A DNA stretch of 40,111 bases. It comes from Acidobacteriota bacterium (lineage in GTDB: Bacteria > Acidobacteriota > Terriglobia > Acidiferrales > UBA7541). A model generated the notes under the pieces. That model had not been told where the DNA came from. It did not search any database and was given only the letters and a program-made list of their open reading frames with translations. Numbering within the stretch: the first letter of the stretch is position 1; the number at the start of each line of letters is the position of its first letter. The DNA lies in NCBI GenBank assembly GCA_003224085.1, contig QHYK01000109.1, positions 1 to 40,111 on the forward strand, in the 5' to 3' direction. This document shows, piece after piece, positions 251-7,392 of this stretch. The position numbers were made by a program, and so were the translations under genes.

Positions 251-2767
251 ATGATGCCGGAGCAAAAGGAAAAATCTAAGCCGCCGGTCGCGGGCTCCGA
301 TTCAAACCGCGAAGGCTTGCGCGTTATCGGGACGCCTCGTCGGCGTGTGGACGGCCGCGCAAAGGTGACGGGGCAGACGCGCTTTGCCGACGACATTTTC
401 CTGCCGCGCATGACGCACTGCAAACTTCTGAGGTCTCCCTATCCTCATGCAAGCATCCGAAAAATCGACGCCTCCCGAGCGCTAGCGCATCCCGGCGTCT
501 ATTTGGTTCTCACCGGGAAGGATCTTCCGATTCAATACGGCATTCTCCCAGTCAGCCAGGATGAGCAGGCTCTTTGCATGGATCATGTGCGGCACGTGGG
601 TGATCCGATTGCGGCGGTCATCGCCCGCGAAGAACTAACGGCATTTGAAGCGCTGGATTTGATCGACGTGGACTACGAAATTCTTCCGACTATCTCCAAT
701 CCGGAGGAAGCTCTGGTAACGCGCGAACCCCGCATCCACGAATACGGTGAAGAAGGAAACATTCATAAGCTAGTTGCCTTGGAATTCGGAAACGTCGAAC
801 ACGGGTTTGTGGAAGCGGACGAAATCTTCGAGGACACCTTCTTTTATCAGGGCAGCACGCATCTTCCTATCGAGCAGCACGCCTCGGTGGCCATTAAAGA
901 TCCCGATGGCAAGCTGACCATCTGGTCGAGTACGCAGACGCCGCATTATCTCCATCGCGCCTTGGCTAAAGTGCTCGAGATGCCGCCGGCACACATTCGC
1001 GTGATCGCCACGCCAAATGGCGGCGGGTTTGGGGGCAAGAGCGATCCGTTCAATCACGAAATTGTCGTGGCGAAAGCCGCGCTGCTCCTCGACCGGCCGG
1101 TCAAGATCTGCTTGACGCGCGAAGAAGTTTTCTACTGTCACCGCGGGCGCCATCCAGTGCTTATGAAATTCAAGACCGGCGTGAAAAAAGACGGCGCGAT
1201 CACAGGCATGCACCTACAGACACTGATTGACGGCGGCGCCTACGGTTCGTACGGCGTTGCAAGCACGTATTACACCGGAGCGCTTCAGACGACGACCTAT
1301 CATATTCCGCGCTATCGCTTTGAGGGCTGCCGAACGTTCACCAACAAGCCCCCCTGCGGGCCCAAGCGCGGGCACGGTACTCCGCAGCCTCGCTTCGGCC
1401 AGGAGGTACAACTCGACAAAATCGCCGAGAAACTCCAAATCGACCCTGCGGATTTGCGCCTGCGAATCACGGAAGCTCCAAACACGGTGACCGCCAATTT
1501 TCTGCGGCTGGGCACGGTAAATCTCAGTGAGTGTATTCGCCGAGTTGTAAGGATTTCGGACTGGAAAAACAAATTCCGCAAGCTCCCCGAAGGCCGCGGC
1601 GTGGGGCTGGCTTGTTCCGCGTATTTGAGCGGGGCTGGTTTGCCCATCTATTGGAACAAGATGCCGCACTCGGGCGTGCAACTGAAATTTGACCGCGGGG
1701 GCGGGGTCAGCATTTTCTGCGGAGCGACAGAAATCGGCCAGGGCTCCGATGACGTTCTTGCGGGCATCGTCGCGGAAGTGCTCGGCATCGATCCCTTTGA
1801 CATACGCCTGTTTACCGGGGACACGGATTTGGGTCCTGTGGATTTGGGATCGTATTCCAGCCGTGTCACGTTGATGGCGGGCAACGCGGCGTTGCAAGCA
1901 GCAGAACGCGGAAAAGCGCTTCTCGCTGAAGCCGTTGCACTGAAATTAGAAGTACCCAGAGAAAGATTGCGCTTCGCTGGCAGGCGCGTCTTCGATTCCA
2001 CTGCGCCGGAGAGCGGGGTCAGCTTCGCGGAAGCGATTTGTCTTGCTGAAGCACGCTTTGGAACGGTCGGTACGGTTGGTTCCTACACGCCCCCGAAATC
2101 CCCCGCTCTTTACAAAGGCGGCGGCGTGGGGCCGTCGCCAACCTATTCTTACTCGGCTGCCGTTGTCCAAGTCGAAGTAAATCCCGTGACCGGCTGGGTG
2201 CATGTGCCCAGAGTGTGGATTGCCCATGACATAGGTCGCGCGCTCAATCCAACGCTGGTGCGCGGCCAGGTGGAAGGCAGCGTTTACATGGGCCTCGGCG
2301 AAGCGCTGATGGAAGAGCAGGAGTTTCGCCGTCTTCCCAAGAGGCTTTCGCATGCTCTGGTGCACAAATTCCCCTCGATGCTCGAATACAAAAGCCCCAC
2401 TTCGCTGGACATGCCGGAAGTGGTCACAGAGCTGGTAGAAGATCCTGACCCTCGCGGCCCCTTTGGCGCAAAGGAGGTCGGCCAAGGCCCGCTGCTGCCG
2501 ATTATGCCCGCGGTAGCAAACGCCGTATACGACGCCGTCGGCGTGCGGATTGACGAGGTTCCCATCACGCCGGAAAAACTTATGAAGGCGCTGGCGGAGA
2601 AGAAAGCAGGCCGCGAGGCGCGCTTTGGCCCAGATCATTTCCCGCGCGTGAATTGGCCCGAGGCACTGCGGATTCCGCCACCGTGGGAAGGTGGCGATGG
2701 CAACGCCGTGAACGACGTTCATCGCGAAAAGCCGCGTTTGTCGAAAGAGAAGGTCCTCGCGCCATGA
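251..2767 (+). CDS. Molybdenum hydroxylase large (Mo-pterin binding) subunit
   Basis: Catalytic subunit, 838 residues, of the xanthine dehydrogenase / 4-hydroxybenzoyl-CoA reductase family, which binds the molybdopterin-cytosine dinucleotide cofactor and hydroxylates or dehydroxylates an aromatic or aldehyde substrate. Visible motifs are the N-terminal hammerhead domain (from VIGTPRRRVDG), the pterin loop NGGGFGGK near residue 256, and KPPCGPKRGHGTPQ near residue 368. I chose ATG 251 (a second ATG follows at 254) because GAGAGAG precedes it; the frame is open back to 137, but that would overlap the upstream gene. The C-terminal active-site segment reads GAKEVGQGP, so residue 745 is Gln where bovine xanthine oxidase and most relatives have the catalytic Glu. 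The stop overlaps the next start as ATGA. Substrate cannot be read from the sequence. Confidence 0.92.
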   Translation: MMPEQKEKSKPPVAGSDSNREGLRVIGTPRRRVDGRAKVTGQTRFADDIFLPRMTHCKLLRSPYPHASIRKIDASRALAHPGVYLVLTGKDLPIQYGILPVSQDEQALCMDHVRHVGDPIAAVIAREELTAFEALDLIDVDYEILPTISNPEEALVTREPRIHEYGEEGNIHKLVALEFGNVEHGFVEADEIFEDTFFYQGSTHLPIEQHASVAIKDPDGKLTIWSSTQTPHYLHRALAKVLEMPPAHIRVIATPNGGGFGGKSDPFNHEIVVAKAALLLDRPVKICLTREEVFYCHRGRHPVLMKFKTGVKKDGAITGMHLQTLIDGGAYGSYGVASTYYTGALQTTTYHIPRYRFEGCRTFTNKPPCGPKRGHGTPQPRFGQEVQLDKIAEKLQIDPADLRLRITEAPNTVTANFLRLGTVNLSECIRRVVRISDWKNKFRKLPEGRGVGLACSAYLSGAGLPIYWNKMPHSGVQLKFDRGGGVSIFCGATEIGQGSDDVLAGIVAEVLGIDPFDIRLFTGDTDLGPVDLGSYSSRVTLMAGNAALQAAERGKALLAEAVALKLEVPRERLRFAGRRVFDSTAPESGVSFAEAICLAEARFGTVGTVGSYTPPKSPALYKGGGVGPSPTYSYSAAVVQVEVNPVTGWVHVPRVWIAHDIGRALNPTLVRGQVEGSVYMGLGEALMEEQEFRRLPKRLSHALVHKFPSMLEYKSPTSLDMPEVVTELVEDPDPRGPFGAKEVGQGPLLPIMPAVANAVYDAVGVRIDEVPITPEKLMKALAEKKAGREARFGPDHFPRVNWPEALRIPPPWEGGDGNAVNDVHREKPRLSKEKVLAP

Positions 2768-3795
2768 TGCGCCTGCCGCTATTCGAATTTCGCGCGCCGC
2801 GGTCTATTGCAGAAGCCGTGCGCATTCTCGACGGCGAAGGACCGCAGGCCATGCCACTCGCAGGTGGCACAGATCTGTTGCCCAACATGAAGCGGCGGCA
2901 ACAGGTTCCCAAGACCTTGATGAGCCTGAACCGCATTTCAGAATTGCACGGTACGGAGTTGAACGATTCGAGCTCGCGACTCGGCGCCTGCGTCACACTT
3001 TCTGAAATCGCCGCCGACTCACGTTTTTGCAATGGTATGACCGCCCTCGCGCAGGCCGCTTCTTTTGTTGCCACACCTCAAATCCGGAACATGGCTACGC
3101 TCGGCGGAAATCTTTGCCTCGACACGCGCTGCAACTATTACAACCAGAATTATGAATGGCGAAAATCCATCGGCTTTTGTTTGAAAAAAGATGGCGATAC
3201 CTGCTGGGTTGCTCCGGGCAGTTCCAAGTGCATGGCCGTTTCTTCGACGGACACGGCTCCGGCATTGATGGCCCTCGGCGCGCGCGTCCGGCTAATTTCG
3301 CGATTGGGCGAACGCGAAGTTCCACTCGCCGAGCTTTATCAAAACGATGGCATTCACTACATTAGGCGACAGCCCAATGAGCTACTGACAGAAGTGCTCC
3401 TGAATCCTCTGCCCGGCTGGAAGAGCGCGTATTGGAAGCTGCGCCGCCGCGGCTCTTTCGATTTTCCGGTGCTGTCGGTGGCCGCAGCCGCGAGGCTATC
3501 CGCCAACAATATGGTTGAAGAATCTCGCATTGTAGTTGGCTCGGTGGCGTGCCTCCCGCTCGTGGCCGCCGAAGCTTCAAAATTCCTGGTGGGCCGGCCG
3601 CTGAACCAAGATTCCATCGCTGCAGCGGCGATGCTGGCCGCACGCATCGCCAAGCCGCTGGACAACACGGATTTCGACATGACCTGGCGCAAACGCGTGA
3701 CCGCGGAATTCGTGACCTATGCGCTCCGCGAGCTACGCGGGGACGACATGCGGGGAGAGCGTCTCCTCCTGACGCGTCACTCCTCCGGCTTTTGA
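2764..3795 (+). CDS. Molybdenum hydroxylase FAD subunit with extra [4Fe-4S] loop (HcrB-like)
   Basis: FAD-binding subunit, 343 residues, translationally coupled to the large subunit by the ATGA overlap. The FAD-binding signature is PLAGGTDLLP (residues 31-40) and TPQIRNMATLGGNL (about 104-117). After that an insertion carries four cysteines, C123, C139, C147 and C156, spaced C-x15-C-x7-C-x8-C. This is the spacing known from the beta subunit of 4-hydroxybenzoyl-CoA reductase (HcrB), where it holds an additional [4Fe-4S] cluster; ordinary xanthine and CO dehydrogenase FAD subunits lack it. I infer a four-cluster enzyme that could work in the low-potential reductive direction. The C-terminal CO dehydrogenase flavoprotein domain follows. 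Symbol withheld because the substrate is not proven. Confidence 0.9.
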   Translation: MMRLPLFEFRAPRSIAEAVRILDGEGPQAMPLAGGTDLLPNMKRRQQVPKTLMSLNRISELHGTELNDSSSRLGACVTLSEIAADSRFCNGMTALAQAASFVATPQIRNMATLGGNLCLDTRCNYYNQNYEWRKSIGFCLKKDGDTCWVAPGSSKCMAVSSTDTAPALMALGARVRLISRLGEREVPLAELYQNDGIHYIRRQPNELLTEVLLNPLPGWKSAYWKLRRRGSFDFPVLSVAAAARLSANNMVEESRIVVGSVACLPLVAAEASKFLVGRPLNQDSIAAAAMLAARIAKPLDNTDFDMTWRKRVTAEFVTYALRELRGDDMRGERLLLTRHSSGF

Positions 3796-3971: not shown

Positions 3972-4520
3972 CTATTGATCGGGATTCGAAGATTTAAGCA
4001 GTGACTTCAAATCAGCGTCAAAAACATCCGTGTATTCAAATCCGATTACCTTCTTGCGTAGGACTCCTTGCCGGTCAAAGAGCATCGTGGTTGGCAAGCC
4101 TTCGATTCCTCCGAACTTCCGCTTCAAATCGTCGGACGCGACTGCCAGTGGATAGCGGACGCCAATCTTTCTGGCGAAGGAGAGAGGGTCTTCCGTGTCC
4201 ATCATTGTGTCAAACTTGAATCCAATGACGGCGAATCCGCGAGCGGCATACTTATCGAGGAGTTTTTGATAACCGGGCATCTCCTTCTTGCACGGCTGAC
4301 ACCATGTAGCCCAAAAATCGATGAGCACTACTTTGCCGCGCAGATCCGCCGCGGAGATGTCCTTCCCTCGCAAATCCTTCACAGAGAATTCCGGCAGGCT
4401 CGAACCAACTTCGCCTGGTGCAATGGCCTTTTCTTGTGGGGTGGCGGGACTCAATGGCCTAGCGCATGCGAACAGCCCCACCAAAGCGAAATTCAGTAAG
4501 ACAAAGCAACGCCTTCGCAT
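3972..4520 (-). CDS. TlpA/ResA-like thioredoxin-fold lipoprotein
   Basis: Thiol-disulfide oxidoreductase of 182 residues. An N-terminal hydrophobic segment ends in LFAC (Cys19), a lipobox, so the mature protein is probably lipid-anchored and faces the periplasm. The thioredoxin fold begins around residue 42 (LPEFSVKDLRGK); the active site is FWATWCQPCKKE with C74 and C77; the cis-Pro loop is GLPTTMLFD. TlpA/ResA proteins reduce disulfides of apocytochromes or metal-site proteins outside the cytoplasm. It begins directly after the TAG stop of the HMA gene (no intergenic bases), as last gene of a four-gene operon, so the HMA protein is its likely redox partner (inference). It ends in TAG like the rest of the cluster. 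Confidence 0.9.
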   Translation of the reverse strand: MRRRCFVLLNFALVGLFACARPLSPATPQEKAIAPGEVGSSLPEFSVKDLRGKDISAADLRGKVVLIDFWATWCQPCKKEMPGYQKLLDKYAARGFAVIGFKFDTMMDTEDPLSFARKIGVRYPLAVASDDLKRKFGGIEGLPTTMLFDRQGVLRKKVIGFEYTDVFDADLKSLLKSSNPDQ

Positions 4521-5048
4521 CTATTCCTTCCTCTGTATCTCCAGAATCAACAGCTTCAACGGAGCCGAAGTATCGGGTTTCGTCCTTTTCTTGCCTTCAG
4601 ACTTTTTGTACAACTGGCCGCGAATCGTTATGGTTGCTTGGTTGTTCGCGAGTGGCTCCAACTCCTTCGACAAGTCATTCGGCGAAATCAGGAACGATTG
4701 ATTCGGACTGACGCTGAGGGTGAGGTGGCCTGAGCTATCTCTGACCACTTTGCCTTGCGCGGTGATTTCCATCTCCGCGACGCTGACACCACTGTCGTAC
4801 ACGGCCTTGAGAAGCTGCGGAGGATCAATTCGGCCGTCCTTTTTAGGAGCGATCTCGACCTTCCCATCAATCAGACTGACATCAACGCTTTGAACGCCAG
4901 ACTGGCGTCCGAGGTGCTGTTTCACCCCGTAGGCTCAAAAGTTTCAAGTCATGCCTTCGACGCGCATTTCAATGTGCTTGATTTGCGCTTGCGAGACCGG
5001 CGCGACCGTGAGGCCCAGCAACAACAGCAAGGCGATTTTCGCGTTCAT
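4521..5048 (-). CDS. Periplasmic HMA-domain protein with two in-frame TGA codons: candidate UxxU selenoprotein
   Basis: One frame of 176 codons runs from ATG 5048-5046 (GGGAGGA just upstream) to TAG 4521-4523. It encodes a signal peptide (MNAKIALLLLLGLTVAPVSQA), then an HMA/MerP-like domain: IEMRVEGMT-x-NF-x-AYGVKQHL, then GVQSVDVSLIDGKVEI. Both x codons are TGA (4944-4946, residue 35; 4937-4935, residue 38), exactly replacing the two Cys of the GMTCxxC metal-binding motif. The frame stays open for 137 further codons with good HMA character and a C-terminal beta-rich domain of unknown family. I read both TGA as selenocysteine. Random nonsense mutation hitting precisely these two codons, without any other lesion, is much less likely. 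Two hairpins follow at once. The neighbouring TlpA-like lipoprotein and barrel protein suggest a soft-metal or thiol/selenol role. Gene finders would miss the first 38 codons. Confidence 0.85.
4892..4929 (-). promoter_or_regulatory. Candidate bacterial SECIS: two tandem hairpins after the TGA codons
   Basis: On the coding strand, CGGGGUG (4929-4923) pairs with CACCUCG (4916-4910) around loop AAACAG, with one G-U pair. Next, GGACGCCA (4910-4903) pairs with UGGCGUUC (4899-4892) around GUC, eight pairs with one G-U. If the closing A-U opens, the second loop is AGUCU, resembling the AGGUCU loop of the E. coli fdhF SECIS. The first loop starts 22 bases after the first TGA; the second starts 33 bases after the second TGA. 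Bacterial SECIS elements lie inside the coding region at roughly these distances. SelB binding is inferred; the two stems share base 4910. Confidence 0.5.
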
Positions 5049-5060
5049 CGTTCCTCCCTT

Positions 5061-6029
5061 CTAAAGGTGCAAACGAAATTGCTGCGTGATTCCAAAGCTG
5101 ACGTGGCGGCGAACCGGCATAAACATCGCGCCGGAAGAATGGGCCACGCCCCAGTCCGCTCCGACCCAAACATGCAGGCCAGGACGCAAGCCCGCATAAC
5201 TCGTGATTCCGGCGAGGAACACGCCACCGCCACTTCCGTTCTGAGTGATTCCGGCGATGCGGCCGTTTTGCATATGGAGCCAAGTAAGTGCCGGTCCTAT
5301 GAACCATTCGCGCGCAACGTTCTTCGATTCATAAGGTCGGTACGACAGCCAGAAGCGCGATTCGATATCAGAGCCGAGTCGTGTCTTCTGCGTGCCCTGA
5401 GAGCACAGAAGCGAATGGAAATCCTCGTCAGCGACGAGCCGTCTGATGTTGAAAAGTCCTGTGTAGGTCCAGTTTGCGGCTACGAAGAAATCAGTCGAGC
5501 CTGAACCGGGTTGCAGACTGGCGGGAAGCAGCGCTCCGTTTGCGGTCGCCAGGCTTGTGCTCCCCGTTGGAAGTTTCGGGCCAAAGGTAAGCGAGGCCTG
5601 GGTGGTGCCTCGTTCGGAATCGCGGCGGTAAAAGCGGTATTTGACGAGGAGCGTTATGTCGCCTAAACCTGTTCCGCCGACCGTTGGGCTGGTTGTCGGT
5701 GGCGCAAGGTCAAAACGATTCGTCGCGACAGGCACGAGGACAGTTAGATCGAAATCTGGATGAAAGCCCCAGGTGAAATTGAACAGCCCCTCGTGCGAAA
5801 AGGTGGGGCGAGCGGCGTTTGGAATGCTGCCGGGAGGAGCAACGAACATGCCACGCGTGACGAAAACGGAGTTATAGGAAACCAGAGCGCCACCGGGGAA
5901 GAGTGGCGGGGCGGTTTCGGGCGCCGCGCCCTGAGCTCCTGCCTTAGGTGCACAGACAGCTAGAATCAAACCTAGCAAGCCGACCGTACCTGCGCGGTAC
6001 AAAAGTCCTTTGTGCGAAGCGATATCCAT
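5061..6029 (-). CDS. Outer-membrane transporter-like beta-barrel protein
   Basis: Secreted protein of 322 residues with an N-terminal signal (hydrophobic run GLLGLILAVCAPKAGAQG). The body alternates short amphipathic strands ending in aromatic residues (YNSVFVTRG, FNFTWGFHPDFDLTVLVPVATNRF, GDITLLVKYRFY, ASLTFGPKLPTG, FFVAANWTYTG) and finishes on a C-terminal aromatic-rich strand with terminal FRLHL, typical of a beta barrel of the outer membrane. It resembles proteins annotated as 'transporter' in the phenol-degradation meta-pathway barrel family; the substrate is unknown. It lies 12 bases upstream of the HMA gene, in the same operon, and ends in TAG. By context it may admit or export a metal or small thiol compound, which is inference. 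Confidence 0.7.
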   Translation of the reverse strand: MDIASHKGLLYRAGTVGLLGLILAVCAPKAGAQGAAPETAPPLFPGGALVSYNSVFVTRGMFVAPPGSIPNAARPTFSHEGLFNFTWGFHPDFDLTVLVPVATNRFDLAPPTTSPTVGGTGLGDITLLVKYRFYRRDSERGTTQASLTFGPKLPTGSTSLATANGALLPASLQPGSGSTDFFVAANWTYTGLFNIRRLVADEDFHSLLCSQGTQKTRLGSDIESRFWLSYRPYESKNVAREWFIGPALTWLHMQNGRIAGITQNGSGGGVFLAGITSYAGLRPGLHVWVGADWGVAHSSGAMFMPVRRHVSFGITQQFRLHL

Positions 6030-6102: not shown

Positions 6103-6453
6103 CTAGATGCGGATAGGGGTAGCGATCGGGGGGCTTGTACCGGGAGGCGCGAAGTGGGATGGAACGGTATCCCAGGCAGCAGAATCGCTCCTCGGAGACT
6201 CTTGAAAGATTGAAATTACCGCGATCACGTCCGCCGCGAACGAGAGTTCGTGAGCGGAGGGCGACTGAACGAATGGCGCACGCATCTGCGGCATTGTCTT
6301 GCAGCACTCTTGGCCATGCCCGGACGAGGAACAGGGCATGGACTGATAGCACTTCATTGCTTCGTCAGGCGTTGTCATGCCGGAGCAATCCACGACATAC
6401 GCTGCCAGCGCAGCCCCGATGAATGCGACCAAAAGTGCTCTTGAAAAACGCAT
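6103..6453 (-). CDS. Small secreted Cys/Met-rich protein, first gene of the metal cluster
   Basis: A 116-residue protein of no recognised family. It starts with a signal-like segment (MRFSRALLVAFIGAALAAYVV), followed by a soft-metal-ligand-rich region of about 35 residues: DCSGMTTPDEAMKCYQ, SMPCSSSGHGQECCKTMPQM. That is five to six cysteines plus Met and His, suited to copper, mercury or similar ions. The C-terminal half is low in Cys and Pro-rich near the end. The barrel gene starts 73 bases downstream on the same strand. The ATG at 6453 has only a weak RBS (GUGGAAUAG region). It ends in TAG. I infer a metal chaperone or scavenger; an alternative is a metal-responsive leader protein. Confidence 0.7.
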   Translation of the reverse strand: MRFSRALLVAFIGAALAAYVVDCSGMTTPDEAMKCYQSMPCSSSGHGQECCKTMPQMRAPFVQSPSAHELSFAADVIAVISIFQESPRSDSAAWDTVPSHFAPPGTSPPIATPIRI

Positions 6454-6694: not shown

Positions 6695-7122
6695 GATTTT
6701 TCGCGGCTTCCCATCAGATAGCCCCGCTTTCATGGACCTGGCCGCCAAGGGAATGGCCGTCCCGTTCGGCCGGCGCCACGTTGTCCGGAACTCCCGGTCG
6801 TAGGTCCATACCTTCAGATCTTTGTCGCGTCCGCCCAATCCGGCTCATGGTTTGCGGACTTCGTGAGCCAGTCGAGCACCTCCAGGAAGAAGTCGCGCTC
6901 GTACATGACCGGAATTGGCTGCGCGATGAGATCGTGCAGCAAAGCCCGAAGCCGCTGCCGCTGGTTTCGATGCGGGAGGTGAAAGCACGTTTCCGTCAGC
7001 ACGGCATCGCAGACCGCGAACTCATCGGCGGCTAGCGACTCAAGATGCTTCATTGCCGTCCGGTGCTTCGAGTCGCGTGCATCGCACAGCGCCACCAACG
7101 GGGTCGTGTCGATCAGAATCAC
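6656..7122 (-). pseudogene. VapC-type PIN-domain toxin, frameshifted
   Basis: From GTG 7122 the frame reads MILIDTTPLVALCDA, with the first PIN aspartate, through ETCFHLPH to DWADA, the conserved acidic block, then stops at 6814 after TKI. The expected continuation lies in another frame: DKDLKVWTYDREFRTTWRR, a typical PIN C-terminus. A small deletion with frame change at about 6835 therefore splits the gene. The shifted tail runs on into the tRNA-Asn fragment and ends at 6656. PIN toxins are Mg-dependent RNases that cleave tRNA or rRNA. As it stands the protein is truncated before the last strand and helix and is probably inactive, unless the shift is an assembly error. Confidence 0.65.
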
Positions 7123-7392
7123 CGCCGGAAGGTCCGGAGCTTACGGAGAATCGCCACACGCGCTGCGCGCCGATCGTAGACGTCGTAGTCGCGGGGCGGC
7201 AGGGTCTGGAGGATCGGGATATTGCTCGAATATCTGTCGGACGATCGTTCTGACATCGGGCGGGGACTCGGACCTACGCAGCGCCGCAAACCGTTCGTCA
7301 ATCGCCTCACGCACCACATCCGACAGGGCCATGCCACGCGCACGAAGCGTCTGTGCCTTGCGAAGTCTATCGGCCAACACTGTCAAGGCCAC
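7119..7392 (-). pseudogene. Antitoxin partner of the PIN toxin, probably frameshifted
   Basis: Starts at GTG 7392. The N-terminal half (LADRLRKAQTLRARGMALSDVVREAIDERFAAL) looks like a short ribbon-helix-helix or related DNA-binding antitoxin. After EQYPDPPDPAAP the frame changes character and stops at 7141. In the next frame the sensible continuation RDYDVYDRRAARVAIL ends at TGA 7121-7119, overlapping the GTG of the toxin as GTGA, the usual antitoxin-toxin coupling. A one-base shift near 7200 would restore one protein of about 90 residues. Together with the broken toxin this is a decayed VapBC-like pair; family naming of the antitoxin is tentative. Confidence 0.5.

Follow-up and report, generated by a model that had tools for sequence, protein, structure and literature searches.

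Most discussion of selenocysteine (Sec, U) concerns redox catalysis, and its presence in HMA-type metal proteins, the UxxU form included, is already known. The closest described systems comprise NF041115, a UxxU protein with two Sec residues that is entered as "metal-binding protein / putative mercuric reductase"; Sec is listed alongside it in a mercuric transport protein and in a cation ATPase (PMC13188914, PMC9312934), and Sec-containing MerT and MerP have been listed from metagenomes (PMC2398784). In this study, we analyzed a window of 40,111 nucleotides, the whole of the stretch examined here, from an Acidobacteriota bacterium (GCA_003224085.1, contig QHYK01000109.1), in which the gene at 5048-4521 (minus strand) almost certainly encodes a double-Sec HMA protein, judging from its codons and those of its relatives. 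A second domain, a conserved gene cluster of its own, and the existence of UxxU, UxxC and CxxC forms whose hairpins match set it apart from the known UxxU family. No description of this UxxU-HMA family was found in the literature, of which our coverage was incomplete, and an earlier account may exist.

The frame begins with ATG, runs for 175 codons and closes with a TAG stop at 4523-4521 (Table 1). A sequence-only reading of this DNA had claimed a single frame interrupted by two TGA codons alone, and this was borne out: in-frame TGA occurs solely at codons 35 (4946-4944) and 38 (4937-4935), nine bases apart from first base to first base, which are both Cys positions of the HMA motif GMTCxxC. 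With U written for TGA, the translation around the motif reads ...HIEMRVEGMTUNFUAYGVKQHLGRQSGV.... An AGGGAGG ribosome-binding site lies directly 5' of the ATG, and the N-terminus is hydrophobic and, judged by eye, of the signal-peptide type. The same reading had expected automatic annotation to call a shorter, motif-less protein from 4925, and plain ORF calling indeed gave a 134-aa GTG-start remnant at 4521-4925 from which the motif is missing. The family is therefore likely hidden in annotated genomes, and ORF calling likely truncates the UxxU and UxxC relatives too.

Table 1. Positions of the features of the selenoprotein locus within the window.
Feature	Position	Strand	Basis or remark
Predicted double-Sec HMA selenoprotein gene, 175 aa	4521..5048	-	PF00403 E 4e-7; TGA conservation in homologues
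UGA-1, putative Sec35, first Cys position of GMTCxxC	4944..4946	-	TGA in 19/19 distinct rows
UGA-2, putative Sec38, second Cys position of GMTCxxC	4935..4937	-	TGA in 19/19 distinct rows
HMA domain, residues about 22-88	4785..4985	-	Pfam match 28-83; AF2 model with MerP/CopZ fold
C-terminal domain, residues 90-175, OB-like in model	4524..4781	-	Common to UxxU, UxxC and CxxC relatives; tentative
Hairpin HP1, stem GGGGUG/CACCUC, loop AAACAG	4911..4928	-	Possible SECIS for UGA-1
Hairpin HP2, stem GGACGCCA/UGGCGUUC, loop GUC	4892..4910	-	Fits bSECIS loop and spacing rules
TlpA/ResA-like thiol-disulfide oxidoreductase, CQPC motif	3972..4520	-	Below ResA and TlpA cut-offs
Probable outer-membrane beta-barrel protein, upstream gene	5061..6029	-	Related by tblastn to HMA-adjoining genes
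Small Cys-rich secreted-looking protein, first gene of presumed operon	6103..6453	-	14/17 close homologues

At E <=1 the window protein matched 14 NCBIfam models, and in every case its score was below the cut-off. It resembles NF041115 (UxxU_metal_bind), likewise small and metal-binding with Sec for both Cys of the motif, and matches its profile locally over residues 21-67 in the HMA part; however, the score of 37.4 bits falls short of the cut-off of 95, the model spans 74 positions whereas the window protein, with its signal-like N-terminal stretch and additional domain, has 175 aa, and no match above the NF041115 cut-off was found across the whole host genome. With MerP (TIGR02052; 1osd) and CopZ (PF00403) it shares the HMA fold and the site positions of GMTCxxC, and the signal-peptide-like N-terminus of MerP resembles its own, but it has Sec at both ligand positions and an additional C-terminal domain, and it reached 26.9 bits with TIGR02052, whose cut-off is 92.55. 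NF045683 (MerT_CopZ_Se) and the Sec-containing MerT and MerP are likewise Sec-bearing heavy-metal transport proteins; here, in contrast, the MerT part is absent and the NF045683 score was 26 bits, the cut-off being 375. Membership of NF041115, MerP and MerT_CopZ_Se was rejected because the scores lay below the cut-offs. With the bacterial bSECIS selenoproteins the locus shares Sec/Cys exchange at one column, a hairpin with a loop G and the Sec genes, but differs in having two closely spaced UGAs and two hairpins in tandem.

A search of relatives together with the own genome gave matches in 39 of 101 genomes. Twelve of these, the own genome among them, form a close set whose other eleven members show 67-71% identity, and exactly two TGA codons lie inside the gene in all twelve. 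Scanning the contigs of named genomes yielded 14 loci, all reading GMTUNFU, eight of which duplicate sequences of the first set. The close homologues belong to Acidobacteria, gp1/gp2 acidobacteria, Acidobacteriales and Candidatus Sulfotelmatobacter, their sequences come from metagenome assemblies among others, and several records mention palsa or sampling depths; the habitat of the host is probably soil. The codon alignment contained 19 distinct rows, namely the window gene, 17 homologues at 65-72% identity and one more distant member at 47% (L038). Codons 35 and 38 were TGA in every row, with no stop elsewhere in any of them, and Cys stands at these positions in other relatives. The view that a TGA pair placed in this way lies beyond accident was thereby sustained, as was the proposal of a UxxU selenoprotein of HMA fold, for which the Sec machinery described below also speaks.

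The low dN relative to dS showed protein-level selection on either side of the TGA pair: median dN was 0.0 and dS 0.50 for residues 22-34, 5' of UGA-1 (18 comparisons), and 0.216 and 1.70 for the part 3' of UGA-2 (18 comparisons, with dS computable in 17). Within that part, dS for residues 39-66 was 0.63 vs 1.70 across its entire length. In addition, the UxxU relatives L040-L042, at 32-36% identity in the matched stretch, carry TGA in the same columns. Two in-frame stops within one gene might be read as the mark of a dead gene, or as assembly errors or nonsense mutations, but the identical stops recur in all 19 rows from different assemblies and in those distant columns, dN is low on both flanks, and a hairpin is retained, which together leave that reading next to no probability. 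Since related bacteria have the gene with both odd codons, a genuine selenoprotein gene is very likely here, and not a broken one. Pseudogene and assembly error were rejected on account of the conserved TGA pair. Separately, two weak distant HMA matches (G415:C29:45576-46004 (-) and G429:C1:2783762-2784097 (-)) contain TAA or TAG besides TGA and are possibly broken.

The host assembly, of 6.8 Mb and 97% complete, contains selA, selB, selD and tRNA-Sec. SelA scored 462 bits (Pfam cut-off 22.8), SelB 353 bits (cut-off 242) and SelD 345 bits (cut-off 125), and the tRNA-Sec has the anticodon tca. A genome-wide code change, with UGA read as Trp or another ordinary amino acid, found no support: beside the dedicated tRNA-Sec and SelA, SelB and SelD, one tRNA-Trp that was observed has the anticodon cca, and homologues from genomes without Sec genes carry Cys at these positions. 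We regard such a change as extremely improbable, and it was rejected because of the tRNA-Sec and the Sec genes in the genome. The host selD is itself spread over two contigs with overlapping ends (L014:1447-1680 (+) and L012 (-), contigs C18 and C89). Its N-terminal part reads AAGUAAK with TGA in frame, so that the host SelD is a selenoprotein too, and this N-terminus would be lost under plain ORF calling.

SelB above cut-off was present in 31 of the 34 genomes whose TGA-bearing locus was read. G063 had two SelB fragments, both below cut-off; G206 had SelA and no SelB above cut-off; G361, which is 72% complete, carried a UxxU gene with neither SelA nor SelB, and G384 of the same genus had SelA and a SelB piece below cut-off. 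G079, represented by a hit row only with one TGA, had SelA and no SelB above cut-off. Five CxxC-only genomes of one genus (G095, G190, G243, G259 and G475) were without SelA and without SelB above cut-off, and a UxxC gene together with SelB was found in another genus of the same family (G305). Many genomes with CxxC members are SelB-positive as well; thus the Sec genes do not predict Sec in the HMA protein.

A profile search of 396 Acidobacteriota genomes gave matches in 99, many of which are ordinary HMA domains of larger proteins; from some 130 match rows we read 30 loci, the own included. The full-length architecture, with a signal-like stretch, the HMA domain and about 85 more residues, occurs in UxxU, UxxC and CxxC form. 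A tree of 56 distinct rows, from which rows below 60 bits or with fewer than about 110 model positions were left out, comprised 28 UxxU, 10 UxxC and 18 CxxC rows, so that Cys occupies in 18 of 56 rows both ligand positions that the window gene retains as TGA. The Sec/Cys states required 6 changes on this tree vs 23.7 in shuffles; many of its inner branches are weak, and we claim no ancestral state among the three forms. L039, which lies at a contig end and gave a stretch without the motif, was left out of the counts. In alignment A1 (30 rows) only A21, G32, C/U35, C/U38 and G99 were invariant. These natural C-C, U-C and U-U swaps at a metal-chelating pair make the role of selenium testable with matched proteins. 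At one locus (L101/L075; genome G470) a CxxC member at 4115-4639 has a UxxC paralogue just upstream within a mer-like cluster, and the adjoining paralogues form a natural Sec/Cys pair in one genome. A broken CxxC copy, its halves in different frames, was seen at L099 (G259), whose genome is without SelA or SelB above cut-off.

According to the published model, a bSECIS has a loop of 3-9 nt, a stem of 4-16 pairs, a G in loop bases 1-2 and a distance of 16-37 nt from UGA to loop, and some genuine selenoprotein genes fail this model (PMC13188914). With UGA-1 as bases 1-3, the UxxU genes show two adjacent hairpins, HP1 at bases ~18-37 and HP2 at 37-55. In the window gene, HP2 has 8 pairs and the loop GUC, and its stem, loop and spacing lie within the bSECIS ranges for UGA-2: the loop begins 32 nt after UGA-2, inside the 16-37 range, and 41 nt after UGA-1, outside it. 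A G stands within the first two HP2 loop bases in 30/30 UxxU genes, and the HP2 register was paired in 231 of 240 cells over these 30 genes vs 69 of 168 in 21 CxxC genes and 37 of 80 in 10 UxxC genes. The 30 UxxU genes include 19 closely related ones, the close relatives of the window gene, and so do not count as 30 independent cases; rows below 40 bits or lacking the motif pattern (e.g. L049, L054, L055) were left out of the hairpin sets. From UGA-1 to the start of the HP1 loop the distance is 21 nt, and from UGA-2 it is 12 nt. Counted per gene, at least 5 pairs of the HP1 stem form in 29/30 UxxU vs 4/21 CxxC genes; the fixed-register count, 146 of 180 cells in UxxU, is weaker because the position of the stem differs by one base from subgroup to subgroup. 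Of the 19 closest UxxU genes, 15 have no loop G in HP1, the window gene among them.

Taken jointly, HP1 and HP2 were paired in 377 of 420 UxxU cells, and sliding one arm by 1-3 bases lowered this to at most 214 of 420. Stem pairs changed on both sides numbered 3 of 14 vs 1 to 5 in the slid controls; as such changes are no commoner than in the controls, the hairpin argument is one of retained pairing and not of covariation. The RNAalifold consensus energy was -12.9 for UxxU, -0.3 for UxxC and 0.0 for CxxC. Measured against synonymous recodings over the stretch set for UxxU, mean z was -1.98 in the 30 UxxU, -1.00 in the 21 CxxC and -0.92 in the 10 UxxC genes; the hairpin stretch of the window gene was not significantly stabler than its synonymous recodings (p 0.084). 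In this test p was >0.05 for 9 of the 30 UxxU genes. Base identity in the hairpin stretches is partly due to protein conservation. In UxxC genes a distinct single hairpin occupies bases 15-31 with the arms CACGC/GCGUG, fully paired in 7/10 genes; its register was paired in 48 of 60 cells over the 10 UxxC genes vs 44 of 126 in CxxC, and the remaining three (L052, L075, L081) showed no pairing in it. The UxxC branch of L043, L045, L047, L050, L074, L076 and L083, which has its own hairpin, is apparently a further selenoprotein group. At gathering scores, Rfam gave only a tRNA over the window and the SelA locus.

With C substituted for U, PF00403 matched residues 28-83 at 30.6 bits (cut-off 24.8). 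AlphaFold2 on the family alignment gave a mean pLDDT of 88, and the HMA model superposed on 1osd, 6ff2 and 4a48 with Z of 8.2-9.0 and rmsd of 1.3-2.0 over 67-72 residues (Z 8.2 over 72 residues for MerP 1osd; Z 8.5 over 67 residues for CopZ 6ff2). The C-terminal domain, modelled alone, reached a pLDDT of 79. Against OB folds its Z was at most 7.8 (VIA), and the comparison with SilF, a metal protein of the CusF/SilF type (Z 7.1, rmsd 3.0, 69 aligned residues), was tied with unrelated OB proteins. Foldseek gave no match for this OB-like domain at E <=0.001, the best being 4.4e-3; with that value and a Z of at most 7.8, we claim no relative for it. In its own numbering only G10, G18, G55 and L77 are invariant or nearly so, with no obvious ligand set.

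The barrel gene upstream and the TlpA/ResA-like gene downstream accompany the selenoprotein gene on the same strand in 17/17 distinct close homologues, and both are retained in L038. The Cys-rich gene is present in 14 of the 17, and one of the remaining three loci ends at a contig end. Farther relatives often, though not always, have the barrel or TlpA within the ~3 kb examined. The barrel protein (5061-6029) gave no Pfam match and the Cys-rich protein (6103-6453) neither a Pfam nor an NCBIfam match; relatives of the barrel stand beside HMA genes in distant relatives, and one of these (in L079/L103) is PF13557. The other three genes of the window cluster include no MerT, MerR, MerA or P-type ATPase, so the metal is deduced from distant relatives only. 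Among these, L101 has a MerTP of 214.6 bits (cut-off 180), whose HMA parts pass the NF041115 and MerP cut-offs; it also has a PF13557 barrel, two MerR-like regulators below cut-off, and a flavoprotein resembling glutathione reductase/MerA that is below every cut-off. L103 (CxxC) combines a MerT of 65.1 bits (Pfam cut-off 32.9) with a PF13557 barrel; L100 (UxxU) a PF13557 barrel with a MerR-like regulator and a MerT-like gene, both below cut-off; and L102 (UxxC) a MerA-like flavoprotein and a MerR-family regulator, each below cut-off. The MerA-like neighbours scored 310.6 and 264.7 bits vs a cut-off of 454.45. NHL-repeat (propeller) genes (L107:201-1256 (-) and L108:7333-8298 (-)) also adjoin UxxU members and may encode a partner.

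The best explanation, to which we give reasonable though not high confidence, is that the double-Sec UxxU protein acts as a periplasmic soft-metal carrier, which is favored because some distant relatives adjoin MerT or MerTP genes. By analogy with these relatives, the handling of a soft metal is more likely than not, mercury or copper being the likeliest. A serious competing possibility, though less probable in our view, is that the same selenoprotein uses UxxU as a redox catalyst, a diselenide/selenol couple passing electrons to and from the TlpA/ResA-like protein as its partner, metal binding being secondary or absent. The TlpA/ResA-like gene directly adjoins in all 17 close homologues, and some relatives have Sec at the first Cys only, a common arrangement in redox motifs; against this, the fold is HMA and not thioredoxin, MerT or MerTP genes lie beside some distant relatives, and no TlpA relative was found in the short stretches of many farther loci. 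It also speaks for a redox role that many listed UxxC and UxxU selenoproteins are thioredoxin-like redox proteins (PMC13188914, PMC9312934).

The TlpA/ResA-like gene starts one base past the selenoprotein stop, at 4520, and its translation could therefore depend on read-through. This arrangement would suit a selenium-sensing switch, in which most ribosomes stop at codon 35 and only ample selenium lets the complete protein be made; UGA recoding in vivo of 30-40%, varying with selenium supply, has been reported (PMC4513850). However, the Sec codons fall exactly at the metal-ligand positions and the Cys forms retain both, neither of which a pure sensor would need, and we consider a switch very improbable.

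For a soft-metal carrier, the following course of events is the one we favor. First, the ribosome very probably decodes both UGAs as Sec by means of SelB, tRNA-Sec and the downstream hairpins. HP1 is spaced right for UGA-1 and HP2 for UGA-2, so that one hairpin per codon is possible: in such a tandem SECIS, HP1 would serve UGA-1 and be unwound as the ribosome arrives at UGA-2, which HP2 would then serve. A hairpin pair after close UGAs would represent a compact natural case of double Sec insertion per message. Second, the protein would be exported to the periplasm, and in its mature form a diselenol U-x-x-U replacing the CxxC of HMA would be followed by the small OB-like domain. Third, UxxU would chelate a soft metal, either Hg(II) or Cu(I), through its selenolates; very strong binding of Hg or Cu and a very low redox potential are the chemical expectation for such a site. 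The pKa of a selenol, 5.2, is far below the 8.3 of a thiol (PMC13188914), and a UxxU site would therefore remain charged at acid pH. Moreover, the adjoining TlpA/ResA-like protein might keep the UxxU site reduced or restore it, and the outer-membrane barrel might belong to the same route, whether of uptake or of export.

Sequence comparison across genomes shows the gene cluster, the signal for recoding and the exact codons at which it acts. More tentatively, and with greater doubt than for the carrier role itself, we suggest a phylum-wide class of secreted Acidobacteriota HMA chaperones in which a diselenolate UxxU would serve soft metals in an acid periplasm and a tandem SECIS would provide one hairpin per UGA. 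On the downstream side of the window cluster, genes for a molybdopterin dehydrogenase large subunit (137-2767) and its FAD subunit (2653-3795), both on the plus strand, converge on the selenoprotein cluster, and on the other side 6814-7122 (-) and 7141-7392 (-) resemble what we take to be a PIN-type toxin and antitoxin gene.
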